From: Amia ocellicauda
Lineage: Eukaryota > Chordata > Actinopteri > Amiiformes > Amiidae
NCBI RefSeq assembly: GCF_036373705.1
Contig: NC_089866.1
Coordinates: forward strand, 19,623,501-19,687,500
Length of the DNA stretch: 64,000 nucleotides
Direction: 5' to 3'
The notes beneath the pieces were generated by a model. It was given only the letters and a program-made list of their open reading frames with translations, was not told where the DNA came from and did no database searches. The position numbers and the translations under genes were made by a program. Positions 1 through 63,135 of the stretch are shown one piece after another; within the stretch, counting starts at the first letter, position 1, and every line of letters begins with the position of its first letter.

Positions 1-2117
1 ATCTCCATACCTGAAATTGCACAATTTGAAGCCAAACTTTCATAAGAAATGAGTTGGAGAGATCAGGACAAGTTTTCTTACCATGTGATGGAAAATGCCT
101 CACTTTACCAATAGGTGTCCACACCAAATGTGGCAAGGCAAGGGATGCAAAAACTGTGCTTTTCACTTCAATCACATGATAACATCACATGGCTTGGGGG
201 AGGATACAATGCATATGATGCAAATGTGCTATATGGGATCTCATAGGGTTCTTAAAGGACACAGAAAGGAAATAAGTCAACCTGGATATGCCATTGAAGA
301 ACAGAAAATCAAATAGAGTAATTTAAATCATTATGAATTGAATATCTTGTGGTTTTGCATTGTTAACAAACAATACACTGATGTTAACTATTTCATAAAG
401 AACGTATTATATCCTTCTTTGATAATTTTATGTTTTGTTTGATTTATACTACTTGTTCTAAAATGATCACAAGACATAGTGGTGCAACAAATGTGGCAAG
501 GCAACAACAGCAGGTCAAGAGATGCTGTTTCTGTCACTGCACTCGAGTCCGTGCACACCACTCAAAGCTGCCCTTGTCTCTTGTCTCTCCCTCTGTGTCC
601 TTCCACACCCAGCTGCTCTTCTTCTCTAGTTTGATTAATCATGTCTTTTGCTACTCTAAATGATCCTGTAGTTGTGTGTAGCCTGCCCTGTGTGGACTGG
701 CCTCCCATCCCGGTATCCCCTGCCTTGTGACCCGGGCCTCCTGCTTCCCATGATGCTTTAGTGTAAGGAGTTTTTATTAATAACAGACGGATTGAAAAAT
801 CTTCCATATTGAATGTGAATGTTACCTTTTTATATATATTTTTTTTATTTGATGTATTTTATTATGGATGCTCTTTGTTTAATTAATACACTAAAAAAAT
901 AAAATGTTTTTCAATAATAAGCACAGCAGTCTTGGCTATGACATTTTTGCACAATCTGGAATTTCTGTGTGCTCACATAACCAGCAGAACCGCATCTTTG
1001 ACAAACACATTGGTGCTCCTTGACTTTATTCAGTAACAAAATGCACTAATGTTACAATCACCTGCAAACTTTGTAAAACACAAATGAGAGCATTAGCCCA
1101 AGACCTTTCTCTGAAAGATGAATCACGTTCAGACGTAACTAGAGAGCTATGACTTCTGCAAACACTGGAGGGAGTCCAACACACAAATTCTCATGCAATT
1201 GTACACATCATGGACAAGTGAAACATTGGGTGAAGATTACATATTAAAATTAGGTACGAGTCCTAATGCGTATTTCTGACAGTGGTTTCAAAAAAGGAAG
1301 TGGATTTATGGGGAAATATATATTCCAGCTGGTCTGTGAGTTGTCCCCCACACAAAGCGGAGGACTGTATTCTGTACTCCATTATTCAACCATTTGTTTG
1401 TGGTGAGTTTGTTTGCTTGTCATTGTTCACACTTTTAAATAGAATATGCACATAGATGTATATGTATGTCTACAAATAATGAAACAGATCTCATTTGTAT
1501 CAACAGCAGTTTTCTGTGAGTTAATTGTCAATAGATAATACAATTCTGTTAACTGTGGCAAAGTTGTAAGATTATGGTGCAATTTCTTAAACTGTTAGTT
1601 ACATGTATTCAGTTTAGCATTATTTTAAGAGATGTAAGTAATAAAACATGCTCATATTATTTTACCTTTTTCTTGGCAAAGATTTTTGGAAATTTTCCAA
1701 AACACACTATCATACAATGAAGTTTAACATTTATGCTTTATAATCTATAATCTAATTTTTATTTTTTTTCCAACCAAGTCCATACACCAGTGCAATATAT
1801 ATTAAATTAACCTAATGACATACAAGATCCTTATGTTTGATATAAGAAATTGCTGCCCATGGTGTCCTTGTTAAAATGTAATTCTGCGTCATATCATTTT
1901 TTTTTAACTTCGGTTCTAATCTCCAAGAAAGGTGTATTTATAATATCGATCTAGTAGAACAATTTGGGTTCTAGCTTTCAAAAACAGTTTCAGTTCTATG
2001 TATTTGTCATTATGAGACTCTGAACGAGAAATGATCAGTCTTGGTAATTGTGAAGAATCGTGTGATGTTTATAGAATCCTTCTCTGTTACAGTGACAGTA
2101 TAACTGAATATATGCAT
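1..2117. other. 5' flank of receptor copy 1, no gene seen
   Basis: AT-rich duplicated flank. Short open frames such as the one at 95-316 recur in the other units only because the DNA is duplicated. They match nothing I recognise and show no coding character. Confidence 0.6.
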
Positions 2118-2220
2118 TATAAAATTAATGCACAAACCCCTTCAGTCAAATATCCTGCCTGACTCTGCTGCTCACCTCTTTAACCACAGCTGAACATACG
2201 AACAATTGCTGTTCTTTAAT
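2118..2220 (+). promoter_or_regulatory. cmklr1: TATA box and putative non-coding exon 1, receptor copy 1
   Basis: TATAAAA at 2118-2124 is followed 103 bp later by a splice donor, AAT|GTAAGG, with the intron starting at 2221. A matching acceptor (TTTTCTCAG, ending at 2390) lies just before the coding exon, giving a 170 bp intron. The TATA-to-donor distance is exactly 103 bp in all four copies. The transcription start, about 30 bp after the TATA box, is inferred. Confidence 0.6.
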
Positions 2221-2412
2221 GTAAGGTTTTCGTACTTATGAATTTCAGGTTGTTTTCTATAGACATGCATACTTTTACTAAGAAATAGAATTATAATGAT
2301 AACAAAATCACAAACTTGCGTACTATACACTGTTTAGTATTTTGAGGTCAGTGATGTGATGTGAATCAATGTTCTTGTTTATTTTCTCAGGTATTTATTG
2401 ATAATACAAACA

Positions 2413-3459
2413 ATGGGTATCTACGACTATGACATTGATTATGACAGTAACGTTACTGAAACTGGTCCAGTGAAGACCAACACAACTTCCCTTTCCACTG
2501 GCACCGCTGCCGGTACTGAAACGGCCAGCTCTGCATTTAGAAATGTGATCGCCGTGCTTTATTCCATTATTTTTCTCCTGGGGTTCTGTGGAAATGGCTT
2601 GGTGATCTGGATAACTGGCTTCAAGATTAAGAGAACTGTGAACACCACCTGGTTCCTCAGCTTGGCCATCTCTGACTTCTTGTTCTGTGTTTTCCTTCCC
2701 TTTAACATTGTGCACGTTGCCTGCGATTCGCACTGGTACTTCGGATTGTTAATGTGCAAGCTTAACGCCTTCATACTGTTCCTCAACATGTTCAGCAGCA
2801 TCTTCCTCCTGGTCATCATCAGTATTGACCGCTGTGTGACTGTTGTGTTCCCAGTATGGTCCCAGAACTACCGCACACCACGGATGGCTTCTGTGATAGC
2901 CTTCCTTGCCTGGGTCACCGCTTGTCTTTTAAGTATACCGTCATTGATATTCAGGGACATTAAAACTAGTCGGGGGAAAACTTTGTGCTACAACAACTAT
3001 GAAAACACAGATCATGAAAGTGTTGCTTTCAGCAGATTCGTCTTTGGATTTGTGATTCCCTTCGTGGTGATTGTCTTCTGCTACACTATCATCATCAGGA
3101 AACTGAAGAACAATCGGATGGCAAGATCTAACAAACCATTCAAAATCATGTCTGCCATCATCGCCACTTTCTTTGTCTGCTGGTTACCCTACCACATTGT
3201 CATAATGCTCGAGATAAACCACCATCGACACGACACAGAGATTTTCAAAAAAGCATTTAGTGCCATTGTTACTCTTGCCTTCGCCAACAGTTTCCTCAAT
3301 CCCATCCTGTACGTGTTCATGGGCAACGACTTCAAGCAGAAGTTTAAGATGTCTGTCCTCTCCAAAATCGAGAACGCTCTGAGCGAGGATGGGCGCACCA
3401 CAAGCAGGCGGCTATCGAAGAGCAGCTCGGTGTATGATAAAGGATCAACTGTCGTGTGA
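2413..3459 (+). CDS. cmklr1: Chemerin-receptor-like GPCR, copy 1 (348 aa)
   Basis: A class A seven-helix receptor of the chemerin/formyl-peptide chemoattractant group, at the plasma membrane and expected to couple to Gi. Visible landmarks: Tyr/Asp-rich N-terminus (residues 3-11), N-glycosylation sites N13 and N23, TM1 GN at 60-61, TM2 D88, disulfide pair C115 and C192, DRC in place of DRY at 139-141 followed by PVWSQN, W167, P215, CWLPY 256-260, NPILY 296-300 and the FMGNDFK helix-8 start. DRC, WSQN, FRD, KPFKI and NALSED are features of the CMKLR1 family, and linkage to wscd2 agrees. The ATG at 2413 lies 22 bp inside the exon that starts at 2391; the open frame runs upstream to 2398 without another ATG. 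The Ser/Thr-rich tail (residues 329-346) could be phosphorylated. The tail is shorter than in human CMKLR1. GPR1/CMKLR2 is less likely because it carries DHY. Confidence 0.93.
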   Translation: MGIYDYDIDYDSNVTETGPVKTNTTSLSTGTAAGTETASSAFRNVIAVLYSIIFLLGFCGNGLVIWITGFKIKRTVNTTWFLSLAISDFLFCVFLPFNIVHVACDSHWYFGLLMCKLNAFILFLNMFSSIFLLVIISIDRCVTVVFPVWSQNYRTPRMASVIAFLAWVTACLLSIPSLIFRDIKTSRGKTLCYNNYENTDHESVAFSRFVFGFVIPFVVIVFCYTIIIRKLKNNRMARSNKPFKIMSAIIATFFVCWLPYHIVIMLEINHHRHDTEIFKKAFSAIVTLAFANSFLNPILYVFMGNDFKQKFKMSVLSKIENALSEDGRTTSRRLSKSSSVYDKGSTVV

Positions 3460-3734
3460 GAAACTAAAGTATGAAACACTGCAGTTGTTCTGCTACATAT
3501 TGCTAACCCAGACCCTTCGAAGAAACAGAGCTGAGCAGATTCAAATATGATTGTATACATCACCCTGAAGTGTAAACATATTTCTGATACAAACTGTGGC
3601 AGTAAATGCATAATAGTAATATTGCATTGCCATTTTGATACATGATTAAGGTTTTTTGTATGTGCTAATAATACTGGAAAAACTGTAGAAGCTGCCTTTT
3701 TGAGAACTCAGTCTGAATAAGCATTATACAGTAC

Positions 3735-3740
3735 AATAAA
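3735..3740 (+). other. cmklr1: Polyadenylation signal AATAAA, receptor copy 1
   Basis: AATAAA lies 275 bp after the stop codon and is kept in all four copies at a similar distance, so a short 3' UTR of about 300 bp is likely. Confidence 0.5.
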
Positions 3741-4679
3741 CAATGTATATTAATACTTAATTCATAGCATAACATTACACACAATAGAGGAGTGTTTTTC
3801 TATTATTGTCTAATTATTGTGCAAATGTCTACCATTCAACATTACTCTGAATACAAGTTTATATACTATTAACTTTAGCACTTTTATCATGATTTGTATC
3901 AAGCTGGTCAGTGTTTTTTATATATTTGATTGCCTTCCTGGAACTCTATGGTGCAGTGAAGGTGTATTATTTAATGGTGTTACTGAAGTGTGCAGGAAGA
4001 TGACGTCGTATTTCTAACCACAGTGCCAGACAGTATTTACAGCTTACTTTATGCAGTGGGATTAAGTAAATTGTACGACTTGTAAAATAGTAATGTAAAT
4101 GTAAAATATCTGAGAGCTTCTATATAATATATGCTGTAGAGTAATTTAAGGACTTTTTATTTATGCTAATGTATTAATATTTCTCTGAAAAATACATTCA
4201 TTTTACTGAGCAAGAGTTAATCAATGCATTAAATTTCATACAAATACTCTCTGCTTACACTAGTATGCAGAACTATTTGTACAAACAGAAATTGATATAG
4301 GCTTTACTTATTGGGTAACCTGAATGAAAATATAATCATACATTTGCTAATGTTATAGACATATTTCTTGACATCTTACCTTACAATAGTAATGGATAAT
4401 ATGTAAATGTTTTAGATAATAAAAGCTCCTTTCTGCTGCCATTCTCGAGAAACGTTTTCTAATAAAATACCATAGCACTGATGTTGTTATGACGGATGAC
4501 ACAGTTTTACTCATACATTTTCTGCAGAGTAATACTGTTGCTATGCATTACAATAGCCTGCTCTATAAACGAGGTATAGATTTGATTCAAAGACAAAAGG
4601 TGATCCTTCCAAGATGTCAAATGGGCAAAGTTATTTTACTCTCACTTCCTAAATAAACTGTGATCAACTCACACTGAAA
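3741..4679. other. 3' flank of receptor copy 1, no gene seen
   Basis: AT-rich duplicated sequence. The 66-codon frame at 3817-4017 recurs in other units but resembles no protein family known to me. Confidence 0.55.
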
Positions 4680-4867
4680 TCATGTGCATGTCTGTTGTGA
4701 CTATACTAGCAACCTGTAACAGCTGTATCAATCCTATGATCTACATCTTGAAGGGCAAGGACATGAAAATGTCATGGATGGAGGATATATTTGTCACAAA
4801 GGAACCAAACAAGTTGGAAGAAGTGAGTACTCCACTAAAATCTCATCATTCTGGGGTGGATGCCTGA
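4680..4867 (+). pseudogene. GPCR TM7 and tail relic, unit 1
   Basis: An open stretch of 61 codons from 4682 reads as the end of a rhodopsin-type receptor. TM7 has an NSCINPMIY motif (the NPxxY signature), followed by a basic helix-8-like KGKDMK and a Ser/Thr-containing tail. Upstream in the same frame are stops, including TGA at 4661-4663, and no TM1-TM6 is visible, so it cannot encode a receptor alone. It aligns in layout with TM7 of the intact copies but is far more diverged, so it came from a different paralogue. The exact subfamily is unclear; the C5a and formyl-peptide receptor group is possible. Confidence 0.65.
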
Positions 4868-7787
4868 GAAGAAACTGATTTTTCTTTATGTTGACTAATC
4901 CATTTTGACCTAAATGGTATATATATATACATAGATGTTTGTAATAACACATGCAGTAGTAATGGTACAATAATTTGGATGTATGATGCATAAATAGTGT
5001 TTATTATATCCATGTAGTTGGCACTTTATAATTTGTTCCTTGCAAGCTTTTATATTTGTATATTTTAAATACAACAAGTGCAATCCTACAAAAGTCAGGC
5101 TTTCCACTAATTCAGTGAAAACTGATGTAACAGTGCATGTTGTTAAACCCTATAAAAACACAGAACAATAATTATTACAATATAAATGTATCACTAACTT
5201 TAAATCTTATAACTATATATCACCCATCAACAGCTATTTAGCACCTGACAATAAATACTTTCATAGAAACCAACTGAAATTACTGCAGCCATCAGGTTCA
5301 GAGTTCACAACCTTATGACACGCTGATGTAATTTTGCAACAACCACAAAATGCTCCCAAAATATCTTAAAATGTTTAATTTTGAAAATGATTTCTAAACA
5401 CAAGACTTCTACAGACCATACTCAAGACACCTGTACTTGTTTTTGTATATCTCCATACCTGAAATTGCACAATTTGAAGCCAAACTTTCATAAGAAATGA
5501 GTTGGAGAGATCAGGACAAGTTTTCTTACCATGTGATGGAAAATGCCTCACTTTACCAATAGGTGTCCACACCAAATGTGGCAAGGCAAGGGATGCAAAA
5601 ACTGTGCTTTTCACTTCAATCACATGATAACATCACATGGCTTGGGGGAGGATACAATGCATATGATGCAAATGTGCTATATGGGATCTCATAGGGTTCT
5701 TAAAGGACACAGAAAGGAAATAAGTCAACCTGGATATGCCATTGACGAACAGAAAATCAAATAGAGTAATTTAAATCATTATGAATTGAATATCTTGTGG
5801 TTTTGCATTGTTAACAAACAATGTTAACTATTTCATATAGAACATATTATATCCTTCTTTGCTAATTTTATTCTATGTTTTGTTTGATTTATACTACTTG
5901 TTCTAAAATGATCACAAGACATAGTGGTGCTTTGCTCTGACAATCCCAGAACAGTTATTCTACTAGCAGCTCTACGCCATGCTCATCACACTGCATGGTG
6001 GTTTGCTCTTCTTGTTCTTGTTAATGCTCTTCCCTGCCAACCTCAAAACACACCACACTGGGAACAATATAGGATGTATACAATTGTATAACTCTCTTCA
6101 ACCTGGCTTTCTGGCTTCAACCATTCAACTGATTTCAACGTCTGCTGTTTGCTTTAGATTCTTCCAGCTTCGCTCCTCTCGTGTTCATTTCCTTTTCCAT
6201 ACTCTGCACTCGAGTCCGTGCACACCACTCAAAACTGCCCTTGTCTCTTGTCTCTCCCTCTGTGTCCTTCCACACCCAGCTGCTCTTCTTCTCTAGTTTG
6301 ATTAATCATGTCTTTTGCTACTCTAAATGATCCTGTAGTTGTGTGTAGCCTGCCCTGTGTGGACTGGCCTCCCATCCCGGTATCCCCTGCCTTGTGACCC
6401 GGGCCTCCTGCTTCCCATGATGCTTTAGTGTAAGGAGTATTTATTAATAACAGACGGATTGAAAAATCTTCCATATTGAATATGAATGTTACCTTTTTAT
6501 ATATATATTTTTTATTTTATTTGATGTATTTTATTATGGATGCTCTTTGTTTAATTAATACACTAAAAAATATAATGTTTTTCAATAATAAGCACAGCAG
6601 TCTTGGCTATGACATTTTTGCACAATCTGGAATTTCTGTGTGCTCACATAACCAGCAGAACCGCATCTTTGACAAACACATTGGTGCTCCTTGACTTTAT
6701 TCAGTAACAAAATGCACTAATGTTACAATCACCTGCAAACTTTGTAAAACACAAATGAGAGCATTAGCCCAAGACCTTTCTCTGAAAGATGAATCACGTT
6801 CAGACGTAACTAGAGAGCTATGACTTCTGCAAACACTGGAGGGAGTCCAACACACAAATTCTCATGCAATTGTACACATCATGGACAAGTGAAACATTGG
6901 GTGAAGATTACATATTAAAATTAGGTACGAGTCCTAATGCGTATTTCTGACAGTGGTTTCAAAAAAGGAAGTGGATTTATGGGGAAATATATATTCCAGC
7001 TGGTCTGTGAGTTGTCCCCCACACAAAGCGGAGGACTGTATTCTGTACTCCATTATTCAACCATTTGTTTGTGGTGAGTTTGTTTGCTTTTCATTGTTCA
7101 CACTTTTAAATAGAATATGCACATAGATGTATATGTATGTCTACAAATAATGAAACAGATCTCATTTGTATCAACAGCAGTTTTCTGTGAGTTAATTGTC
7201 AATAGATAATACAATTTTGTTAACTGTGGCAAAGTTGTAAGATTATGGTGCAATTTCTTAAACTGTTAGTTACATGTATTCAGTTTAGCATTATTTTAAG
7301 AGATGTAAGTAATAAAACATGCTCATATTATTTTACCTTTTTCTTGGCAAAGATTTTTGGAAATTTTCCAAAACACACTATCATACAATGAAGTTTAACA
7401 TTTATGCTTTATAATCTATAATCTAATTTTTTTTTTTTTCCAACCAAGTCCATACACCAGTGCAATATATATTAAATTAACCTAATGACATACAAGATCC
7501 TTATGTTTGATATAAGAAATTGCTGCCCATGGTGTCTTTGTCAAATATAATTCTGCGTCATATCATTTTTTTTTTAACTTCGGTTCTAATCTCCAAGAAA
7601 GGTGTATTTATAATATCGATCTAGTAGAACAATTTGGGTTCTAGCTTTCAAAAACAGTTTCAGTTCTATGTATTTGTCATTATGAGACTCTGAATGAGAA
7701 ATGATCAGTCTTGGTAATTGTGAAGAATCGTGTGATGTTTATAGAATCCTTCTCTGTTACAGTGACAGTATAACTGAATATATGCAT
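4868..7787. other. Inter-gene spacer between copies 1 and 2, no gene seen
   Basis: Contains the unit 1/2 junction at 5448/5449. Frames at 5543-5764 and 5979-6296 are duplicated passengers without recognisable domains. The segment 5931-6204 is missing from unit 1. Confidence 0.6.
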
Positions 7788-7890
7788 TATAAAATTAATG
7801 CACAAACCCCTTCAGTCAAATATCCTGCCTGACTCTGCTGCTCACCTCTTTAACCACAGCTGAACATACGAACAATTGCTGTTCTTTAAT
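7788..7890 (+). promoter_or_regulatory. cmklr1: TATA box and putative non-coding exon 1, receptor copy 2
   Basis: TATAAAA at 7788-7794, donor AAT|GTAAGG with the intron starting at 7891, and acceptor ending at 8060. The layout is the same as copy 1, with a 170 bp intron. Confidence 0.6.
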
Positions 7891-8082
7891 GTAAGGTTTT
7901 CGTACTTATGAATTTCAGGTTGTTTTCTATAGACATGCATACTTTTACTAAGAAATAGAATTATAATGATAACAAAATCACAAACTTGCGTACTATACAC
8001 TGTTTAGTATTTTGAGGTCAGTGATGTGATGTGAATCAATGTTCTTGTTTATTTTCTCAGGTATTTATTGATAATACAAACA

Positions 8083-9129
8083 ATGGGTATCTACGACTAT
8101 GACATTGATTATGACAGTAACGTTACTGAAACTGGTCCAGTGAAGACCAACACAACTTCCCTTTCCACTGGCACCGCTGCCGGTACTGAAACGGCCAGCT
8201 CTGCATTTAGAAATGTGATCGCCGTGCTTTATTCCATTATTTTTCTCCTGGGGTTCTGTGGAAATGGCTTGGTGATCTGGATAACTGGCTTCAAGATGAA
8301 GAGAACTGTGAACACCACCTGGTTCCTCAGCTTGGCCATCTCTGACTTCTTGTTCTGTGTTTTCCTTCCCTTTAACATTGTGCACGTTGCCTGCGATTCG
8401 CACTGGTACTTCGGATTGTTAATGTGCAAGTTTAACGCCTTCATACTGCTCCTCAACATGTTCAGCAGCATCTTCCTCCTGGTCATCATCAGTATTGACC
8501 GCTGTGTGACTGTTGTGTTCCCAGTATGGTCCCAGAACTACCGCACACCACGGATGGCTTCTGTGATAGCCTTCCTTGCCTGGGTCACCGCTTGTCTTTT
8601 AAGTATACCGTCATTGATATTCAGGGACATTACAGCTAGTCGAGGGAAAACTTTGTGCTACAACAACTATGAAAACACAGATCATGAAAGTGTTGCTTTC
8701 AGCAGATTCATCTTTGGATTTGTGATTCCCTTTGTGGTGATTGTCTTCTGCTACACTATCATCATCAGGAAACTGAAGAACAATCGGATGGCAAGATCTA
8801 ACAAACCATTCAAAATCATGTCTGCCATCATCGCCACTTTCTTTGTCTGCTGGTTACCCTACCACATTGTCATAATGCTCGAGATAAACCACCATCGACA
8901 CGACACAGAGATTTTCAAAAAAGCATTTAGTGCCATTGTTACTCTCGCCTTCGCCAACAGTTTCCTCAATCCCATCCTGTACGTGTTCATGGGCAACGAC
9001 TTCAAGCAGAAGTTTAAGATGTCTGTCCTCTCCAAAATCGAGAACGCTCTGAGCGAGGATGGGCGCACCACAAGCAGGCGGCTATCGAAGAGCAGCTCGG
9101 TGTATGATAAAGGATCAACTGTCGTGTGA
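8083..9129 (+). CDS. cmklr1: Chemerin-receptor-like GPCR, copy 2 (348 aa)
   Basis: Intact receptor with the same landmarks as copy 1. It has only six amino-acid differences from that copy: I72M, L117F, F123L, K184T, T185A and V210I. The N-terminal 40 residues are identical to copy 1. From the second extracellular loop into TM5 it instead shares ITASRG, RFIFGF and linked silent changes with copy 4. That switch of partners within one exon is what gene conversion produces. F123L is in TM3, and K184T/T185A are in the loop before C192 that caps the ligand pocket in this family, so a change in ligand preference is conceivable. The ATG at 8083 is chosen as in copy 1. Confidence 0.93.
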   Translation: MGIYDYDIDYDSNVTETGPVKTNTTSLSTGTAAGTETASSAFRNVIAVLYSIIFLLGFCGNGLVIWITGFKMKRTVNTTWFLSLAISDFLFCVFLPFNIVHVACDSHWYFGLLMCKFNAFILLLNMFSSIFLLVIISIDRCVTVVFPVWSQNYRTPRMASVIAFLAWVTACLLSIPSLIFRDITASRGKTLCYNNYENTDHESVAFSRFIFGFVIPFVVIVFCYTIIIRKLKNNRMARSNKPFKIMSAIIATFFVCWLPYHIVIMLEINHHRHDTEIFKKAFSAIVTLAFANSFLNPILYVFMGNDFKQKFKMSVLSKIENALSEDGRTTSRRLSKSSSVYDKGSTVV

Positions 9130-9404
9130 GAAACTTAAGTATGAAACACTGCAGTTGTTCTGCTACATATTGCTAACCCAGACCCTTCGAAGAAACAGAG
9201 CTGAGCAGATTCAAATATGATTGTATACATCACCCTGAAGTGTAAACATATTTCTGATACAAACTGTGGCAGTAAATGCATAATAGTAATATTGCATTGC
9301 CATTTTGATACATGATTAAAGTTTTTTGTATGTGCTAATAATACTGGAAAAACTGTAGAAGCTGCCTTTTTGAGAACTCAGTCTGAATAAGCATTATACA
9401 GTAC

Positions 9405-9410
9405 AATAAA
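9405..9410 (+). other. cmklr1: Polyadenylation signal AATAAA, receptor copy 2
   Basis: AATAAA 275 bp after the stop codon, at the same place as in copy 1. Confidence 0.5.
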
Positions 9411-10351
9411 CAATGTATATTAATACTTAATTCATAGCATAACATTACACACAATAGAGGAGTGTTTTTCTATTATTGTCTAATTATTGTGCAAATGTCT
9501 ACCATTCAACATTACTCTGAATACAAGTTTATATACTATTAACTTTAGCACTTTTATCATGATTTGTATCAAGCTGGTCAGTGTTTTTTATATATTTGAT
9601 TGTCTTCCTGGAACTCTATGGTGCAGTGAAGGTGTATTATTTAATGGGGTAACTGAAGTGTGCAGGAAGATGACGTCGTATTTCTAACCACAGTGCTAGA
9701 CAGTATTTACAGCTTACTTTATGCAGTGGGATTAAGTAAATTGTACGACTTGTAAAATAGTAATGTAAATGTAAAATATCTGAGAGCTTCTATATAATAT
9801 ATGCTGTAGAGTAATTTAAGGACTTTGTTTTTATGCTAGTATAAAGATATTTCTCTCAAAAATACATTCATTTTACTTTGCACGACTTTATCAATAGATT
9901 CAATTTCATACAAATACTCTCTCTGCTTACACTAGTATGCAGAACTATTTGCACAAACAGAAATTGATATAGGCTTTACTTATTGGGTAACCTGAGTGAA
10001 AATATAATCAAACATTTTCTAATGTTATAGACATATGTCTTGACATCTTACCTTACAATTGTAATGGATAATATGTAAGTGTTTTATATAATAAAAGCAC
10101 ATTTCTGCTGCCATTCTCGAGAAACGTTTTCTAATAAAATACCATAGCACTGATGTTGTTATGACGGATGACACAGTTTTACTCATACATTTTCTGCAGA
10201 GTAATACTGTTGCTATGCATTACAATAGCCTGCTCTATAAACGAGGTATAGATTTGATTCAAAGACAAAAGGTGATCCTTCCAAGATGTCAAATGGGCAA
10301 AGTTATTTTACTCTCACTTCCTAAATAAACTGTGATCAACTCACACTGAAA
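9411..10351. other. 3' flank of receptor copy 2, no gene seen
   Basis: Duplicated AT-rich spacer. The tract around 9821-9930 carries unit-4-type variants. Confidence 0.55.
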
Positions 10352-10539: not shown

Positions 10540-13458
10540 GAAGAAACTGATTTTTCTTTATGTTGACTAATCCATTTTGACCTAAATGGTATATATATAT
10601 ACATAGATGTTTGTAATAACACATGCAGTAGTAATGGTACAATAATTTAGATGTATGATGCATAAATAGTGTTTATTATATCCATGTAGTTGGCACTTTA
10701 TAATTTGTTCCTTGCAAGCTTTTATATTTGTATATTTTAAATACAACAAGTGTAATCCTACAAAAGTCAGGCTTTCCACTAATTCAGTGAAAACTGATGT
10801 AACAGTGCATGATGTTAAACCCTATAAAAACACAGAACAATAATTATTACAATATAAATGTATCACTAACTTTAAATCTTATAACTATATATCACCCATC
10901 AACAGCTATTTAGCACCTGACAATAAATACTTTCATAGAAACCAACTGAAATTACTGCAGCCATCAGGTTCAGAGTTCACAACCTTATGACACGCTGATG
11001 TAATATGCAACAACCACAAAATGCTCCCAAAATATCTTAAAATGTTTAATTTTGAAAATGATTTCTAAACACAAGACTTCTACAGACCCTACTCAAGACA
11101 CCTGTACTTGTTTTTGTATATCTCCATACCTGAAATTGCACAATTTGAAGCCAAACTTTCATAAGAAATGAGTTGGAGAGATCAGGACAAGTTTTCTTAC
11201 CATGTGATGGAAAATGCCTCACTTTACCAATAGGTGTCCACACCAAATGTGGCAAGGCAAGGGATGCAAAAACTGTGCTTTTCACTTCAATCACATGATA
11301 ACATCACATGGCTTGGGGGAGGATACAATGCATATGATGCAAATGTGCTATATGGGATCTCATAGGGTTCTTAAAGGACACAGAAAGGAAATAAGTCAAC
11401 CTGGATATGCCATTGACGAACAGAAAATCAAATAGAGTAATTTAAATCATTATGAATTGAATATCTTGTGGTTTTGCATTGTTAACAAACAATGTTAACT
11501 ATTTCATATAGAACATATTATATCCTTCTTTGCTAATTTTATTCTATGTTTTGTTTGATTTATACTACTTGTTCTAAAATGATCACAAGACATAGTGGTG
11601 CTTTGCTCTGACAATCCCAGAACAGTTATTCTACTAGCAGCTCTACGCCATGCTCATCACACTGCATGGTGGTTTGCTCTTCTTGTTCTTGTTAATGCTC
11701 TTCCCTGCCAACCTCAAAACACACCACACTGGGAACAATATAGGATGTATACAATTGTATAACTCTCTTCAACCTGGCTTTCTGGCTTCAACCATTCAAC
11801 TGATTTCAACGTCTGCTGTTTGCTTTAGATTCTTCCAGCTTCGCTCCTCTCGTGTTCATTTCCTTTTCCATACTCTGCACTCGAGTCCGTGCACACCACT
11901 CAAAACTGCCCTTGTCTCTTGTCTCTCCCTCTGTGTCCTTCCACACCCAGCTGCTCTTCTTCTCTAGTTTGATTAATCATGTCTTTTGCTACTCTAAATG
12001 ATCCTGTAGTTGTGTGTAGCCTGCCCTGTGTGGACTGGCCTCCCATCCCGGTATCCCCTGCCTTGTGACCCGGGCCTCCTGCTTCCCATGATGCTTTAGT
12101 GTAAGGAGTATTTATTAATAACAGACGGATTGAAAAATCTTCCATATTGAATGTGAATGTTACCTTTTTATATATATATTTTTTTTTATTTGATGTATTT
12201 TATTATGGATGCTCTTTGTTTAATTAATACACTAAAAAATATAATGTTTTTCAATAATAAGCACAGCAGTCTTGGCTATGACATTTTTGCACAATCTGGA
12301 ATTTCTGTGTGCTCACATAACCAGCAGAACCGCATCTTTGACAAACACATTGGTGCTCCTTGACTTTATTCAGTAACAAAATGCACTAATGTTACAATCA
12401 CCGGCAAACTTTGTAAAACACAAATGAGAGCATTAGTCCAAGACCTTTCTCTGAAAGATGAATCACGTTCAGATGTAACTAGAGAGCTATGACTTCTGCA
12501 AACACTGGAGGGAGTCCAACACACAAATTCTCATGCAATTGTACGCATCATGGACAAGTGAAACATTGGGTGAAGATTACATATTAAAATTAGGTACGAG
12601 TCCTAATGCGTATTTCTGACAGTGGTTTCAAAAAAGGAAGTGGATTTATGGGGAAATATATATTCCAGCTGGTCTGTGAGTTGTCCCCCACACAAAGCGG
12701 AGGACTGTATTCTGTACTCCATTATTCAACCATTTGTTTGTGGTGAGTTTGTTTGCTTTTCATTGTTCACACTTTTAAATAGAATATGCACATAGATGTA
12801 TATGTATGTCTACAAATAATGAAACAGATCTCATTTGTATCAACAGCAGTTTTCTGTGAGTTAATTGTCAATAGATAATACAATTTTGTTAACTGTGGCA
12901 AAGTTGTAAGATTATGGTGCAATTTCTTAAACTGTTAGTTACATGTATTCAGTTTAGCAGTTATTTTAAGAGATGTAAGTAATAAAACATGCTCATATTA
13001 TTTTACCTTTTTCTTGGCAAAGATTTTTGGAAATTTTCCAAAACACACTATCATACAATGAAGTTTAACATTTATGCTTTATAATCTATAATCTAATTTT
13101 TATTTTTTTTCCAACCAAGTCCATACACCAGTGCAATATATATTAAATTAACCTAATGACATACAAGATCCTTATGCTTGATATAAGAAATTGCTGCCCA
13201 AGGTGTCTTTGTCAAATATAATTCTGCCTCACATAATTTTTTTTTTAACTTCAGATATAATCTCCAAGAAAGGTGTATTTATAATATTGATCTAGTAGAA
13301 CAATTTGGGTTCTAGCTTTCAAAAACAGTTTGAGTTCTATGTATTTGTCATTATGAGACTCTGAACGAGAAATGATCAGTCTTGGTAATTGTGAAGAATC
13401 GTGTGATGTTTATAGAATCCTTCTCTGTTACAGTGACAGTATAACTGAATATATGCAT
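10540..13458. other. Inter-gene spacer between copies 2 and 3, no gene seen
   Basis: Contains the unit 2/3 junction at 11119/11120. The content is that of the spacer at 4868-7787, including the 274 bp segment absent from unit 1. Confidence 0.6.
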
Positions 13459-13561
13459 TATAAAATTAATGCACAAACCCCTTCAGTCAAATCTCCTGCC
13501 TGACTCTGCTGCTCACCTCTTTAAACACAGCTGAACATACGAACAATTGCTGTTCTTTGAA
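13459..13561 (+). promoter_or_regulatory. cmklr1: TATA box and putative non-coding exon 1, receptor copy 3
   Basis: TATAAAA at 13459-13465. The donor sequence here is GAA|GTGAGC instead of AAT|GTAAGG. The surrounding bases changed but a consensus donor was kept at the same offset, which supports a real splice site. The intron runs 13562-13917 and is 356 bp because of a SINE-tail insertion. Confidence 0.62.
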
Positions 13562-13689
13562 GTGAGCTTTCTGTACTTTGAATTTCAGGTTGTTTTCTAT
13601 AGACATGCATACTTTTACTAAGAAATATAATAATCATAATAATAATACATCTATTACATACAAAATCACAAACGTGAGTACTATATACT

Positions 13690-13789
13690 CCTTCACTGTA
13701 TTATTGCACTTTGTTTGCACTTATGTTGTAAATCGCCCTGGATAAGGGCGTCTGCCAATAATTAAAATAATAATAATAATATTATTATT

Positions 13790-13858
<69 letters not shown>
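13690..13858 (+). mobile_element. SINE 3' tail with ATT/AAT microsatellite in copy 3 intron
   Basis: The sequence TGTAAATCGCCCTGGATAAG and the following GGCGTCTGCCAATAA are the hallmark 3' tail of fish SINEs. It runs into a long AAT/ATT microsatellite (about 13765-13856). The insert is absent from the other three copies. It is bounded by ATACT at 13685-13689 and 13854-13858, a likely 5 bp target duplication. The 5' tRNA-like head is missing. Confidence 0.8.
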
Positions 13859-13930
13859 GTTTAGTATTTTGAGGTCAGTGATGTGATGTGAATCTATGTT
13901 CTTGTTTATTTTCTCAGGTATTGATTGATT

Positions 13931-14983
13931 ATGGACCCAGTAGATGACTATGACTATGACTATTTCAATAATGATACTGATGCTGGTCCAGTGAAGACCA
14001 ACACAACTTCCCTTCCCACTGGCTCTGCTGCCTGTACTGTAACTCTGCACAGCTCTGCATTTAGAAATGTGATCGCCGTGCTTTATTCCATTATTTTTCT
14101 CCTGGGGTTCTGTGGAAATGGCTTGGTGATCTGGATAACTGGCTTCAAGATGAAGAGAACTGTCAACACCACCTGGTTCCTCAGCTTGGCCATCTCTGAC
14201 TTCTTGTTCTGTGTTTTCCTTCCCTTTAACATTGTGCATGTTGCCTGCGATTCGCACTGGTACTTCGGATTGTTAATGTGCAAGTTTAACGCCTTCATAC
14301 TGTTCCTCAACATGTTCAGCAGCATCTTCCTCCTGGTCATCATCAGTATTGACCGCTGTGTGACTGTTGTGTTCCCAGTATGGTCCCAGAACTACCGCAC
14401 ACCACGGATGGCTTCTGTGATAGCCTTCCTTGCCTGGGTCACCGCTTGTCTTTTAAGTATACCGTCATTGATATTCAGGGACATTAAAACTAGTCGGGGG
14501 AAAACTTTGTGCTACAACAACTATGAAAACACAGATCATGAAAGTGTTGCTTTCAGCAGATTCGTCTTTGGATTTGTGATTCCCTTCGTGGTGATTGTCT
14601 TCTGCTACACTATCATCATCAGGAAACTGAAGAACAATCGGATGGCAAGATCTAACAAACCATTCAAAATCATGTCTGCCATCATCGCCACTTTCTTTGT
14701 CTGCTGGTTACCCTACCACATTGTCATAATGCTCGAGATAAACCACCATCGACACGACACAGAGATTTTCAAAAAAGCATTTAGTGCCATTGTTACTCTC
14801 GCCTTCGCCAACAGTTTCCTCAATCCCATCCTGTACGTGTTCATGGGCAACGACTTCAAGCAGAAGTTTAAGATGTCTGTCCTCTCCAAAATCGAGAACG
14901 CTCTGAGCGAGGATGGGCGCACCACAAGTAGGCGGCTATCGAAGAGCAGCTCGGTGTATGATAAAGGATCAACTGTCGTGTGA
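13931..14983 (+). CDS. cmklr1: Chemerin-receptor-like GPCR, copy 3 (350 aa)
   Basis: Intact receptor. The body from TM1 onward is the same as copy 1 except for I72M and L117F equivalents, so all family landmarks (DRC, PVWSQN, CWLPY, NPILY) are present. The N-terminus is of a second type shared with copy 4, starting MDPVDDY and followed by Tyr-Asp alternation (residues 7-11). Glycosylation sites are N14 and N24. It is also the most altered N-terminus: it has NDTDAG in place of NVTETG and an extra cysteine at residue 35 that has no counterpart in the other copies. The start ATG at 13931 lies 13 bp inside the exon that begins at 13918. Confidence 0.93.
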   Translation: MDPVDDYDYDYFNNDTDAGPVKTNTTSLPTGSAACTVTLHSSAFRNVIAVLYSIIFLLGFCGNGLVIWITGFKMKRTVNTTWFLSLAISDFLFCVFLPFNIVHVACDSHWYFGLLMCKFNAFILFLNMFSSIFLLVIISIDRCVTVVFPVWSQNYRTPRMASVIAFLAWVTACLLSIPSLIFRDIKTSRGKTLCYNNYENTDHESVAFSRFVFGFVIPFVVIVFCYTIIIRKLKNNRMARSNKPFKIMSAIIATFFVCWLPYHIVIMLEINHHRHDTEIFKKAFSAIVTLAFANSFLNPILYVFMGNDFKQKFKMSVLSKIENALSEDGRTTSRRLSKSSSVYDKGSTVV

Positions 14984-15258
14984 GAAACTTAAGTACAAAA
15001 CACTGCAGTTGTTCTGCTACATATTGCTAACCCAGACCCTTCGAAGAAACAGAGCTGAGCAGATTCAAATATGATTGTATACATCACCCTGAAGTGTAAA
15101 CATATTTCTGATACAAACTGTGGCAGTAAATGCATAATAGTTATATTGCATTGCCATTTTGATACATGATTAAGGTTTTTTGTATGTGCTAATAATACTG
15201 GAAAAACTGTAGAAGCTGCCTTTTTGAGAACTCAGTCTGTATAAACATTATACAGTAC

Positions 15259-15264
15259 AATAAA
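15259..15264 (+). other. cmklr1: Polyadenylation signal AATAAA, receptor copy 3
   Basis: AATAAA 275 bp after the stop codon, as in the other copies. Confidence 0.5.
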
Positions 15265-16216
15265 CAATGTATATTAATACTTAATCCATAGCATAACATT
15301 ACACACAATAGAGGAGTGTTTTTCTATTATTGTCTAATTATTGTGCAAATGTCTACCATTCAACATTACTCTGAATACAAGTTTATATACTATTAACTTT
15401 AGCACTTTTATCATGATTTGTATCAAGCTGGTCAGTGTTTTTTATATATTTGATTGTCTTCCTGGAACTCTATGGTGCAGTGAAGGTGTATTATTTAATG
15501 GTGTTACTGAAGTGTGCAGGAAGATGACGTCGTATTTCTAACCACAGTGCTAGACAGTATTTACAGTTTACTTTATGCAGTGTGATTAAGTAAATTGTAC
15601 GACTTGTAAAATAGAAATGTAAAAGTAAAATATCTGAGAGCTTCTATATAATATATGCTGTAGAGTAATTTAATGTATTTTTATTTATGCTAATGTATTA
15701 ATATTTATCTGAATATTACATTCATTTTACTGAGCAAGAGCTAATCAATGGATTCAATTTCATACAAATACTCTCTGCTTACACTAGTATGTAGTACTAT
15801 TTGCACAAACAGAAATTGATATAGGCTTTACTTATTGGGTAACCTGAGTGAAAATATAATCAAACATTTTCTAATGTTATAGACATATGTTTTGACATCT
15901 TACCTTACAATTGTAATGGATAATATGTAAGTGTTTTAGATTATAAAAGCACATTTCTGCTGCCATTCTCGAGAAACGTTTTCTAATAAAATACCATAGC
16001 ACTGATGTTGTTATGACGGATGACACAGTTTTACTCATACATTTTCTGCAGAGTAATACTGTTGCTATGCATTACAATAGCCTGCTCTATAGATGAGGTA
16101 TAGATTTGATTCAAAGACAAAAGGTAATCCTTCCAAGATGTCAAATGGGCAAAGTTATTTTACTTTCACTTCCTAAAAACACTGCGATCAACTCATACTG
16201 AAATCATGTGAATGTC
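15265..16216. other. 3' flank of receptor copy 3, no gene seen
   Basis: Unit-type flank ending at about 16216, where the match to units 1 and 2 stops. The TM7 relic present there is lacking here. Confidence 0.55.
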
Positions 16217-16612
16217 ATCCACGTCACTGTATTGTTTTTAATGTGAATGACTGGTTCCCTGATTCATGCAATACAAAATTGCATAACTGCAAGCTTCATT
16301 TTTTTTGTCCACTTGTGCAATTCCAGAAAGAGCAGTTTCCCTTGGCATGCGATCACCTCTTTGATCGGCCTTCTTGGGCTTTAACTGATAGTAACAAGTT
16401 TAGTTTGCCTGCAGTGCCACCGATGAGTTACAGCATGCATTTGTATGTTAACACTATCAAACCATTAAAAACAATCTCACTTAATAATGGCTTAAGTGGG
16501 ATATTAATTGATTTGTTTATGTGCAATTTCAACTCTGTTGTAATGCCAAATAAATGTGTTAAATTTTAATCATTCAAGACAGTGGAATAGCTAATAATAT
16601 ATATCATACATA
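16217..16612. other. Unassigned segment between unit 3 and the Tc1 element
   Basis: This segment has no match elsewhere in the window. A 108-codon frame at 16243-16569 resembles nothing I know. Near its end, AATAAATGTG at about 16551 looks like a polyadenylation signal in a T-rich context, so a retroposed 3' UTR is possible but unproven. Confidence 0.4.
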
Positions 16613-16614
16613 TA

Positions 16615-17838
16615 CATTCACCTAAAGGATTATTCGGAACACCTGTTCAATTTCTCATTAATGCAATTATCTAACCAACCAATCACATGGCAGTTGCTTC
16701 AATGCATTTAGGGGTGTGGTCCTGGTCAAGACAATCTCCTGAACTCCAAACTGAATGTCTGAATGGGAAAGAAAGGTGATTTAAGCAATTTTGAGCGTGG
16801 CATGGTTGTTGGTGCCAGAAGGGCCGGTCTGAGTATTTCACAATCTGCTCAGTTACTGGGATTTTCACGCACAACCATTTCTAGGGTTTACAAAGAATGG
16901 TGTGAAAAGGGAAAAACATCCAGTATGCGGCAGTCCTGTGGGGGTCGAAAATGCCTTGTTGATGCTAGAGGTCAGAGGAGAATGGGCCGACTGATTCAAG
17001 CTGATAGAAGAGCAACTTTGACTGAAATAAGCACTCGTTACAACCGAGGTATGCAGCAAAGCATTTGTGAAGCCACAACACGTACAACCTTGAGGCGGAT
17101 GGGCTACAACAGCAGAAGACCCCACCGGGTACCACTCATCTCCACTACAAATAGGGAAAAGAGGCTACAATTTGCACAAGCTCACCAAAATTGGACAGTT
17201 GAAGACTGGAAAAATGTTGCCTGGTCTGATGAGTCTCGATTTCTGTTGAGACATTCAGATGGTAGAGTCAGAATTTGGCGTAAACAGAATGAGAACATGG
17301 ATCCATCATGCCTTGTTACCACTGTGCAGGCTGGTGGTGGTGGTGTAATGGTGTGGGGGATATTTTCTTGGCACACTTTAGGCCCCTTAGTGCCAACTGG
17401 GCATCATTTAAATGCCACGGCCTACCTGAGCATTGTTTCTGACCATGTCCATCCCTTTATGACCACCATGTACCCATCCTCTGATGGCTACTTCCAGCAT
17501 GATAATGCACCATGTCACAAAGGTCGAATCATTTCAAATTGGTTTCTTGAACATGACAATGAGTTCACTGTACTAAACTGGCCCCCACAGTCACCAGATC
17601 TCAACCCAATGGAGCATCTTTGGGATGTGGTGGAACGGGAGCTTCGTGCCCTGGATGTGCATCCCACAAATCTCCATCAACTGCAAGATGCTATCCTATC
17701 AATATGGGCCAACATTTCTAAAGAATGCTTTCAGCACCTTGTTGAATCAATGCCACGTAGAATTAAGGCAGTTCTGAAGGCGGAAGGGGGTCAAACACAG
17801 TAATAGTATGGTGTTCCTAATAATCTTTTAGGTGAGTG
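16615..17838 (+). mobile_element. Intact Tc1/mariner element, DD36E type (1224 bp)
   Basis: The terminal inverted repeats start CATTCACCTAAAG at 16615 and, on the opposite strand, CACTCACCTAAAA at 17838. They match over about 29 bp with three mismatches. TA dinucleotides flank both ends (16613-16614 and 17839-17840), as expected of Tc1/mariner target duplication. An uninterrupted transposase gene fills the middle. Intact ends plus an open gene suggest recent insertion. Confidence 0.92.
16763..17803 (+). CDS. Tc1/mariner transposase, full length (346 aa)
   Basis: DNA transposase that cuts and pastes the surrounding element. Residues 1-110 form a paired-type helix-turn-helix DNA-binding region (LSISQSAQLLGFSRTTIS at 23-40). 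The catalytic region has D156 (WSDESRF), D247 (QHDNAPCH) and E284 (NPMEHLW). Thirty-six residues separate the second Asp from the Glu, rather than the 34 of classic Tc1, so the triad is DD36E. That spacing defines the Incomer family of Tc1/mariner transposases. No stop or frameshift interrupts the gene and the triad is complete, so it may be active. The start ATG sits 148 bp inside the left end and the stop 35 bp from the right end. Confidence 0.94.
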   Translation: MGKKGDLSNFERGMVVGARRAGLSISQSAQLLGFSRTTISRVYKEWCEKGKTSSMRQSCGGRKCLVDARGQRRMGRLIQADRRATLTEISTRYNRGMQQSICEATTRTTLRRMGYNSRRPHRVPLISTTNREKRLQFAQAHQNWTVEDWKNVAWSDESRFLLRHSDGRVRIWRKQNENMDPSCLVTTVQAGGGGVMVWGIFSWHTLGPLVPTGHHLNATAYLSIVSDHVHPFMTTMYPSSDGYFQHDNAPCHKGRIISNWFLEHDNEFTVLNWPPQSPDLNPMEHLWDVVERELRALDVHPTNLHQLQDAILSIWANISKECFQHLVESMPRRIKAVLKAEGGQTQ

Positions 17839-17840
17839 TA

Positions 17841-18083
17841 TACACAGCTCTGGAAAAAAATAAGAGACCACAGCAAATGTTTCTTAAATCAGCATCTCTA
17901 CATGTATGGCAGCCATTCCATTCCATTCATATTTTTATTTGGAATTTGGGAGAAATGTTGTCAGTAGTTTATAGAATAAAACAAAAATGTTCATTTTACC
18001 CAAACACATACCTACAGTATAAATAGTAAAACCAGAGGAACTGATCATTTTGCAGTGGTCTCTTAATTTCTTCCAGAGCTGTA
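17841..18083. mobile_element. Non-autonomous Tc1/mariner-like MITE
   Basis: The ends are inverted: ACAGCTCTGGAAAAAAATAA with GAGACCAC on the left, and GTGGTCTCTTAATTTCTTCC with AGAGCTGTA on the right. There is no coding capacity. TA flanks fit Tc1/mariner mobilisation. It directly abuts the right end of the DD36E element. The same terminal sequence recurs as a remnant at 24744-24803. Confidence 0.8.
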
Positions 18084-18383: not shown

Positions 18384-19520
18384 TGCTCACATAACCAGTA
18401 TAACAGCATTTTGACAAACACATTGGTGCTCCTTGACTTTATTCAATAACAAAATGCATGCACTTTAAAATCACCTGCTAATTTTGTAAAACACAAATGA
18501 GAGCATTACCCCTACACCTTTCTCTAACAGATAAATCCTGTTTAGATGTAATTGAACAACTATGACTTCTGCAAACACTGGAGGGAGTCCAACACAAATT
18601 TTCAGAAAATTGCAAGTATGGTGGACCATTTGAATCATTGGGTGAAGATTATAGATTAAAATTAGCTACAAGTCCTAATGCGTATTTCTGACAGTGCTGT
18701 CAAAAAAGGATGTGAAATATGTACTTCAGCTAGGCTGTGAGTTGTCCCCCACACAAAACAGAGGACTGTATAACTCATTGTTCAACCATATATTTGGGGT
18801 GAGTTTGTTTTCTTATCATTGTTCACGCTTTTAAATATAAAATGCACATACAAGAATATGTATATCTACAAATATTGAAACATATCAAATTTGTACCAAC
18901 AGCACTCTTCTGTGAGTTAATTTTCACTAGATGATATAATATTGTTAACTGTGGCAAAGTCTTAAGATTATCATCCAATTTCTGAGTAAACTGTTAGTTA
19001 CGTGTATTTAGTTTAACAGTTATTTTAAGAGATGTATTCCTTTATAATCATCAGACATGCTCGTATTAAAACTTTTTCTTGGCAGAATTATTCGAACATC
19101 TTCAAAACACATTATTGTACCATGAACATTTATGCTTTATCATCTATTTAAATGCAAAGTTGTTTTTTAATCCGCCAAGTCCATACAACAATATAATATA
19201 TATTCAGTTACCATAATGACATACGAGGTCCTTATGTTTGATACAAGAAATTGCTGCCCATGTTGTATATAGTTCTGCCTCATATCACTTTTTTTTTTTT
19301 CAAATCTAATCTCGAAGAAAGGTGTATTTATAATATTGATCTAGTAAAACAATTGTGTTCTGCCAACGTTGTTTTAGCTTTCAAAAACAGTTTGAGTTAT
19401 ATGTATTTGTCATTATGAGACTCTGAATGAGAAATGATCAGTCTTGGTAATTGTGAAGAATCGTGTGATGTTTATAGAATCCTTCTCTGTTACAGTGACA
19501 GTATAACTGAATATATGCAT
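18384..19520. other. 5' flank of receptor copy 4, no gene seen
   Basis: Diverged counterpart of the flank upstream of copies 1-3. No coding content. Confidence 0.55.
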
Positions 19521-19623
19521 TATAAAATTAATGCACAAACCCCTTCAGTCAAATCTCCTGCCTGACTCTGCTGCTCACCTCTTTAAACACAGCTGAACAT
19601 ACGAGCAATTGCTGTTCTTTAAT
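19521..19623 (+). promoter_or_regulatory. cmklr1: TATA box and putative non-coding exon 1, receptor copy 4
   Basis: TATAAAA at 19521-19527, donor AAT|GTAAGG with the intron starting at 19624, and acceptor ending at 19811 (intron 188 bp). This block is nearly unchanged from the other copies, while the DNA upstream of about 19385 is clearly diverged. That points to constraint or to the edge of a conversion tract. Confidence 0.62.
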
Positions 19624-19824
19624 GTAAGGTTTTTGTACTTATGAATTTCAGGTTGTTTTATATAGACATGCATACTTTTACTAAGAAATAGAATAATCAT
19701 AATAATAATACATCTATTTCATATAAAATCACAAATGTGTGTACTATATACTGTTTAGTATTTTGAGGTCAGTGATGTGATGTGAATCTATGTTCTTGTT
19801 TATTTTCTCAGGTATTGATTGATT

Positions 19825-20886
19825 ATGGACCCAGTAGATGACTATTCCTATGACTATGACTATGACTATTTCAATAACGTTACTGAAACTGGTCCAGTGA
19901 AGACCAACGCAACTTCCCTTTCCACTGGCGCCGCTGCCGGTACTGAAACGGCCAGCTCTGCATTTAGAAATGTGATCGCCGTGCTTTATTCCATTATTTT
20001 TCTCCTGGGGTTCTGTGGAAATGGCTTGGTGATCTGGATAACTGGCTTCAAGATGAAGAGAACTGTGAACACCACCTGGTTCCTCAGCTTGGCCATCTCT
20101 GACTTCTTGTTCTGTGTTTTCCTTCCCTTTTACATTGTGCATGTTGTCTGCGATTCGCACTGGTACTTTGGATTGTTAATGTGCAAGTTTAACGCATTCA
20201 TACTGTTCCTCAACATGTTCAGCAGCATCTTCCTCCTGGTCATCATCAGTATTGACCGCTGTGTGACTGTTGTGTTCCCAGTGTGGTCCCAGAACTACCG
20301 CACACCACGGATGGCTTCTGTGATAGCCTTCCTTGCCTGGGTCGCCGCTTGTCTTTTAAGTATACCGCCATTGATATTCAGGGACATTACAGCTAGTCGA
20401 GGGAAAACTTTGTGCTACAACAACTATGAAAATGCAAATCATGAAAGTGTTGCTTTCAGCAGATTCATCTTTGGATTTGTGATTCCCTTTGTGGTGATTG
20501 TCTTCTGCTACACTATCATCATCAGGAAACTGAAGAACAATCGGATGGCAAGATCTAACAAACCATTCAAAATCATGTCTGCCATCATCGCCACTTTCTT
20601 TGTCTGCTGGTTACCCTACCACATTGTCATAATACTCGAGATAAACCACCATCGACACGACACCGAGATTTTTAAAAAAGCAGTTAGTGTTGTTGTTACT
20701 CTTGCCTTCGCCAACAGTTTCCTCAATCCCATCCTGTACGTGTTCATGGGCAACGACTTCAAGCAGAAGTTTAAGATGTCTGTCCTCTCCAAAATCGAGA
20801 ACACTCTGAGCGAGGATGGGCGCACCACAAGCAGGCGGCTATCGAAGAGCAGCTCGGTGTATAATAAAGGATCAACTGTCGTGTGA
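19825..20886 (+). CDS. cmklr1: Chemerin-receptor-like GPCR, copy 4 (353 aa)
   Basis: Intact and the most diverged of the four. The N-terminus is of the MDPVDDY type, with the longest Tyr-Asp run (residues 5-15, coded by repeated TATGAC hexamers). Glycosylation sites are N18 and N28. Private changes relative to the other copies include PFYIVHVV in TM2 (for PFNIVHVA), VAACLLSIPPL in TM4, ENANHES in loop 2, IVIILEI in TM6, KAVSVVVTL entering TM7, IENTLSED in the tail and YNKG near the end. It shares ITASRG and RFIFGF with copy 2. All activation motifs are kept (DRC, CWLPY, NPILY), so it should fold and signal. The start ATG lies 13 bp inside the exon that begins at 19812. Confidence 0.93.
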   Translation: MDPVDDYSYDYDYDYFNNVTETGPVKTNATSLSTGAAAGTETASSAFRNVIAVLYSIIFLLGFCGNGLVIWITGFKMKRTVNTTWFLSLAISDFLFCVFLPFYIVHVVCDSHWYFGLLMCKFNAFILFLNMFSSIFLLVIISIDRCVTVVFPVWSQNYRTPRMASVIAFLAWVAACLLSIPPLIFRDITASRGKTLCYNNYENANHESVAFSRFIFGFVIPFVVIVFCYTIIIRKLKNNRMARSNKPFKIMSAIIATFFVCWLPYHIVIILEINHHRHDTEIFKKAVSVVVTLAFANSFLNPILYVFMGNDFKQKFKMSVLSKIENTLSEDGRTTSRRLSKSSSVYNKGSTVV

Positions 20887-21161
20887 GAAACTTAAGTACA
20901 AAACACTGCAGTTGTTCTGCTACATATTGCTAACCCAGACCCTTCGAAGAAACAGAGCTGAGCAGATTCAAATATGATTGTATACATCACCCTGAAGTGT
21001 AAACATATTTCTGATACAAACTGTGGCAGTAAATGCATAATAGTAATATTGCATTGCCATTTTGATACATGATTAAAGTTTTTTGTATGTGCTAATAATA
21101 CTGGAAAAACTGTAGAAGCTGCCTTTTTGAGAACTCAGTCTGAATAAGCATTATACAGTAC

Positions 21162-21167
21162 AATAAA
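21162..21167 (+). other. cmklr1: Polyadenylation signal AATAAA, receptor copy 4
   Basis: AATAAA 275 bp after the stop, the same place as in the other three copies. Confidence 0.5.
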
Positions 21168-21663
21168 CAATGTATATTAATACTTAATTCATAGCATAAC
21201 ATTACACACAATAGAGGAGTGTGTCTATTACAGTCTAATTATTGTACAAATGTCTACCATTCAACATTACTCTGAATATAAGTTTGTATACTATTAACTT
21301 TAGCACTTTTATCATGATTTGTATTAAGCTGGTCAGTGTTTTTTATATATTTGATTGTCTTCTGCTTCCTGGAACTCTATGGTGCAGTGAAGGTGTATTA
21401 TTTAATGGTGTTACTGAAGTGTGCAGGAAGATGACGTCGTATTTCTAACCACAATGCCAGACAATATTTACAGCTTACTTTATGCAGTGTGATTAAGTAA
21501 ATTTTAAGACTTTAAGAGCTTTTATATAATATATGCTGTAGAGTAATTTAAGGACTTTGTTTTTATGCTAGTATAAAGATATTTCTCTCAAAAATACATT
21601 CATTTTACTTTGCACGACTTTATCAATAGATTCAATTTCATACAAATACTCTCTCTGCTTACA

Positions 21664-24710: not shown

Positions 24711-24743
<33 letters not shown>
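24711..24743. repeat. TA microsatellite
   Basis: Uninterrupted TA repeats directly before the MITE remnant. Confidence 0.9.

Positions 24744-35287: not shown

Positions 35288-63135
<27,848 letters not shown>

Follow-up and report, generated by a model that had tools for sequence, protein, structure and literature searches.

Lineage-specific duplication within the receptor branch that includes chemerin receptor 1 (CMKLR1) has precedents in fish. The three-spined stickleback carries a CMKLR1 duplicate, and a German lake-river pair shows strong differences in its copy number, according to the passages of PMC4256280 that treat this gene. In the GPCR cartography of PMC6504862, the sections on this branch describe clades (GPR190-193 and GPR1B) that lie near CMKLR1, GPR33, and GPR1 and have duplicated internally in fish, coelacanth, and amphibians. 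The locus described here lies in a 64 kb stretch of the Amia ocellicauda genome (hereafter, the window), which contains no N bases. It resembles the stickleback case in being a lineage-specific duplication of CMKLR1, and the cartography clades in showing repeated lineage-specific duplication within the same branch; however, the stickleback result reflects population read depth, whereas ours is one assembled locus with sequence mosaics, and GPR190-193 and GPR1B are separately named clades, whereas the present array adjoins a WSCD2-like gene. A literature search returned no description of this array, these two studies being the nearest; likewise, no such array is described in the relevant parts of a grouper paper (PMC9312885), which names CMKLR1 in its section on genome evolution, or of PMC10792014, on the chemokine system. 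The array is an ordinary recent duplication, of a receptor family whose duplication in fish is already on record in the portions of PMC4256280 and PMC6504862 noted above.

With vertebrate CMKLR1 (ChemR23), the array shares a rhodopsin-type seven-transmembrane (7TM) architecture, the tail-binding arginines, most of the Gi contacts, and a WSCD2-like neighbor. It differs in having four copies, in a second extracellular loop (ECL2) that is ca. 19 residues shorter than in human CMKLR1 (alignment of the second copy, U2), and in changes at positions 2.60, 3.29, 7.43, and F190. The N-terminus of human CMKLR1 is acidic and tyrosine-bearing. The copies in the array are like vertebrate CMKLR1 in this respect too (the acidic residues of the human receptor are treated in the N-terminal section of PMC12120241). 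Taken as a whole, the locus quite probably arose when the CMKLR1 orthologue was recently multiplied in tandem.

The preliminary description of this DNA proposed a head-to-tail array of four intact chemerin-receptor-like GPCRs that was open on the left and ended at 21662. All of this was borne out, with the end of homology now placed at 21664. Four single-exon receptor genes on the plus strand, each open from ATG to stop, lie between 2413 and 20886 (Table 1), and a tblastn search of the 64 kb window with U2 as the query found no further receptor copies or fragments at an E value of 0.01. The distances from one coding start to the next are 5670, 5848, and 5894 bases, and homology between units extends from the first base of the window to the end of the fourth unit, with unit boundaries that represent an arbitrary choice of phase. 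Because the first 485 bases of the window still match two later segments (Table 1), the left edge of the array is open, although a fifth gene is not implied. Head-to-tail repetition is seen in a match between 537-8001 and 6204-13689 at 98.4% identity; this match of 7.5 kb covers more than one unit and is thus not a pure U1-U2 figure. The U1 and U2 proteins are 98.3% identical (tblastn). Identity to U1 and U2 is ca. 96% for the U3 coding unit, and the U4 unit matches the others at 84-92%; U4, the most diverged copy, is also the one closest to the WSCD2-like gene. An acceptor-like sequence, tttattttctcag, is found shortly 5' of the ATG in all four copies, and the coding region therefore looks like a single exon, with a putative noncoding exon upstream. 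In the DNA alignment (8070-8100 and 13925-13960), the ATG of U3 and U4 stands opposite ATA in U1 and U2, whose ATG is farther on. The two pairs seem to differ by a shift of the start site, judging from an alignment with which the protein alignment disagrees as to the start codons. No RNA families were found in the window at gathering scores.

Table 1. Coordinates of the receptor array, its repeats, and the neighboring gene (window positions).
Feature	Coordinates	Strand	Basis or remarks
Receptor copy U1, CDS	2413..3459	+	348 aa; intact ORF; 7tm_1 198.2 bits
Receptor copy U2, CDS	8083..9129	+	348 aa; intact ORF; 7tm_1 197.7 bits
Receptor copy U3, CDS	13931..14983	+	350 aa; intact ORF; 7tm_1 199.5 bits
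Receptor copy U4, CDS	19825..20886	+	353 aa; intact ORF; 7tm_1 198.7 bits
Unit 1	1..5448	+	left end beyond window; phase from 1-485 / 5449-5930 / 11120-11601 match
Unit 2	5449..11119	+	unit homology
Unit 3	11120..16216	+	homology to units 1 and 2 stops at 16216
Unit 4	18384..21664	+	start and end of homology to other units
(AAT)33 microsatellite	13757..13856	+	inside U3 insertion, ca. 75 bases 5' of coding start; tandem repeat finder
Tc1-type transposon, between U3 and U4	16611..17842	+	33-nt terminal inverted repeats, 91% complementary
Hexanucleotide repeat, U4 N-terminus	19838..19869	+	in frame, Tyr/Asp repeats; tandem repeat finder, period 6, 5.3 copies; codon alignment
WSCD2-like gene	35291..63135	-	eight coding pieces in order; tblastn with human WSCD2
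WSCD2-like pieces	62758-63135, 53878-53994, 52401-52595, 48888-49007, ~47370-47543, 44840-45007, 43937-44152, 35291-35641	-	tblastn

Each of the four proteins matches the Pfam 7tm_1 model (197.7-199.5 bits; cut-off, 30.5), and each retains D-R-C at 3.49-3.51, CW-P, NPILY, and the TM3-ECL2 cysteines, in agreement with the earlier statement that the activation motifs are preserved in every copy. The D-R-C variant is the form found in human CMKLR1. When U2, the one copy used for this search, was compared with solved structures, human CMKLR1 scored highest among the best 60 of 368 matches (301.9 bits), followed by the C3a receptor (239.7), FPR1 (226.3), and CMKLR2 (221.4); GPR33 and the fish-only orphan clades are absent from those 60. 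Across the copies, 145-148 of 287 aligned residues are identical to those of human CMKLR1. An AlphaFold model made from four near-identical rows had a mean pLDDT of 38.4, too poor for comparison with CMKLR1.

The WSCD2-like gene lies downstream of the array and is convergent with it. Its pieces were located with a human WSCD2 query, in a comparison confined to WSCD2. Pfam searches of six of the eight pieces identified WSC domains in three (44.4, 31.7, and 22.6 bits, two above and one below the cut-off of 27.8) and a sulfotransferase domain in the last (31.7 bits), with no family in the remaining two; the first piece, taken as ORF 62701-63153, matched no Pfam family. The last intron of this gene contains two mobile-element fragments: part of a LINE reverse transcriptase at 39954-40625 (RVT_1, 90.7 bits) and, at 42221-42727, part of another transposase of Tc1 type (DDE_3, 50.3 bits). 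In mammals, a single CMKLR1 sits beside WSCD2, and the convergent CMKLR1-WSCD2 order is that of the human genome. This arrangement supports the claim that the array occupies the syntenic position of CMKLR1.

Given CMKLR1 as the top match of U2 and the convergent WSCD2-like gene, the assignment of the four copies as orthologues of CMKLR1 is well supported by similarity and synteny. It is doubtful that they instead represent a lineage-specific group beside CMKLR1, either GPR33-like or a fish orphan clade, that senses another peptide or lipid. Internally duplicated fish orphan clades near CMKLR1 and GPR33 do exist, as the sections of PMC6504862 on this branch describe, and 4 of 11 ligand-pocket positions differ from human; however, such a group would have to account for a WSCD2-like gene convergent with the array and for a CMKLR1 score 62 bits above that of the C3a receptor, the next-best family (U2, best 60 of 368 matches).

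Eleven CMKLR1 positions are named in the structural passages of PMC10699647 as contacts of the chemerin nonapeptide (chemerin9). Seven of these (F88, M123, R178, R224, Y276, E283, and F294) match the human residue in every copy, and four are changed in all four: H95 to N (U1-U3) or Y (U4), N116 to A, F190 to Y, and I306 to F. L119, which shifts upon binding according to the same passages, is kept in the alignment of U2 with human CMKLR1. That source also reports, where it deals with mutants, that replacing H95 with Ala, Leu, or Lys lowers the potency of the nonapeptide, two of these mutants being poorly displayed at the surface; N and Y, the residues found here, are not among the three replacements. 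From its tyrosine at this position, U4 may be tuned differently from the other copies. Among 12 G-protein-side and ICL positions, 10 are the same as human (D136, R137, C138, I243, L247, P258, I261, V145, N149, and R151), and S140 and L252 differ. Chemerin-type recognition with Gi signaling is the likely, predicted mechanism: each copy, if expressed, would act as a Gi-coupled chemoattractant receptor. The C-terminal tail of chemerin would enter the pocket, which is for the most part conserved, while its core would be held by the acidic, Tyr-rich N-terminus.

Divergence among the copies is mosaic. U4 differs from each of the others by ca. 15.5% upstream of U2 position 7642 but by 3-4% from 7642 to the exon, and divergence is also low in the coding body and 3' flank. 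This combination resembles a gene-conversion tract, with a possible contribution from constraint. Of 35 ungapped four-way differences between U1 and U2, 21 unite U1 with U3 and U2 with U4, 2 unite U1 with U4 and U2 with U3, 8 are private to U1, 3 are private to U2, and 1 is of another type. The 21 comprise 14 at 9827-9896, a span of 70 bases close to where U4 homology ends, 5 at 8633-8733, and two singletons (7695 and 9320); because shared variants are concentrated in clusters, they represent few events. In a test of runs of matching variable sites, the observed length was reached in 0/3000 permutations for four pairs, 6/3000 for U1-U2, and 36/3000 for U1-U4. For U1-U2, U1-U3, and U2-U3, the longest runs fall in the upstream part, in which U4-private differences predominate, and are thus weak evidence of conversion; the telling runs are those of U2-U4 (23 sites at 9820-9901) and U3-U4 (12 sites at 7998-8089).

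These patterns also bear on whether some of the array was created as an artifact during assembly, with U1/U2 (or U2/U3) representing duplicated haplotypes or collapsed repeats merged into a chimeric consensus. Exact shared runs of 1033 aligned bases in U2-U3 and 602 in U1-U2 are what such an artifact could produce, mis-joined reads could also yield a mosaic of identity, and the shared variants fall mainly in two clusters. We nevertheless consider an artifact improbable: 23 of the 35 U1-U2 differences are shared variants rather than private noise; the ca. 6% difference between U1 and U2 over 9707-10156 (26/448) is high for two alleles; and U3 and U4 are clearly distinct, making some three real copies hard to avoid. 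The preliminary description had left the choice between very recent expansion and assembly duplication. Duplication with gene conversion fits better than a plain duplicated haplotype, as the variants that link U1 and U2 to U3 and U4 fall into distinct clusters. Plain assembly duplication therefore appears unlikely from the variant pattern, which sequencing noise would not produce either, although chimeric assembly might give the same pattern.

We infer the following history for the tandem expansion. An ancestral receptor gene adjoining WSCD2 would have been duplicated as a block of ca. 5.7 kb; U4 would have split off first, followed by U3, U1, and U2 via unequal crossing-over, and the receptor exon would have been homogenized through gene conversion, every copy retaining the whole coding exon together with a predicted splice acceptor of its own. 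Gap runs in the coding alignment are all multiples of three, whereas many in the intron alignment are not, and dN/dS in the coding body is 0.14-0.58 over the six pairs. The chance of remaining stop-free after 52 random substitutions is 0.23, and so survival of the reading frames alone is weak evidence of constraint.

Mobile elements and simple repeats are interspersed in the array. The U3-U4 linker (16201-18390) has no residual homology to the U1-U2 linker (4201-6700) at an E value of 0.01. The Tc1-type transposon between U3 and U4 carries an intact 346-aa transposase ORF (16763-17803) and may be recent. It is abutted by a MITE-like element of 249 bases (17839-18087) with 39-nt inverted ends, which match 24740-24777. 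Just 5' of the U3 coding exon is an insertion (13690-13856) with (AAT)33 and a SINE-like tail. The heterology created by this insertion might keep gene conversion from extending freely into the N-terminal segment.

The N-terminus (codons 1-39) is the most variable part of the coding sequence, with 21/111 variable sites compared to 31/927 elsewhere in the CDS (p 8e-9) and 23/400 in the adjacent intron (p 6.5e-5), in tests that assume independence among sites and are sensitive to the alignment. The densest 110-site stretch within U2 7660-9600 starts at 8060, approximately the start of the exon, and holds 23 of the 96 variable sites in that region, a density reached in 0/20000 permutations. When gap-adjacent and repeat sites are dropped, the N-terminus has 9/69, compared to the same 31/927 (p 0.001) and to 20/365 in the intron (p 0.03). 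Each N-terminus has two N-glycosylation sequons, with 3, 3, 3, and 5 tyrosines and 6, 6, 7, and 8 acidic residues in U1 to U4, respectively; a cysteine occurs in U3 only, and the length of an (Asp-Tyr)n repeat varies among copies. That the tyrosines are sulfated is a guess. Positive selection on the N-terminus is not supported: dN/dS is 0.69-0.95 in the five pairs with changes, which amount to three distinct comparisons because U1 and U2 are identical there, and no pair exceeds 1. Of the ungapped variable N-terminal codons, 15 are nonsynonymous and 3 synonymous, compared to 18 and 12 in the body (six gapped N-terminal columns excluded). Synonymous change is raised in the N-terminus as well, which fits either an older or foreign segment outside conversion or a local mutation hot spot.

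If the locus is indeed a tandem array, the chances fall only slightly short of even that its members are redundant dosage copies, which supply more receptor and nothing else, with the N-terminal differences reflecting drift in a segment missed by conversion. The dN/dS values of body and N-terminus fit purifying selection with relaxed constraint, and the N-terminal density of variable sites is close to that of the unhomogenized flanks (155/960 upstream and 44/304 downstream); yet drift alone does not readily explain an N-terminus more variable than the adjacent intron, an excess that is weaker in the reduced set of sites. It seems unlikely that the array is a small receptor repertoire, in which conversion would keep the transmembrane signaling core alike while the N-terminal "address," with its slippage-prone, in-frame (Asp-Tyr)n, would be kept different, tuning the hold of each copy on chemerin or a relative. 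In the human receptor, truncation of more than 20 N-terminal residues reduces chemerin potency more than 260-fold, and acidic N-terminal residues are implicated, according to the mutagenesis passages of PMC12120241; the relevant portions of PMC11515964 describe a sheet formed by the GPR1 N-terminus with the chemerin core, and those of PMC11592271 set out a two-site model of chemerin binding.

At the orthologous locus, the array shows an immune chemoattractant receptor that has recently multiplied, in four intact copies that are directly testable. Mammals have one copy of this receptor, compared to four side by side here, which differ most in the outer tail predicted to grip the ligand. Because the N-terminus strongly affects chemerin potency, copies with a common core and a differing tail would offer a natural experiment on the two-site binding model.
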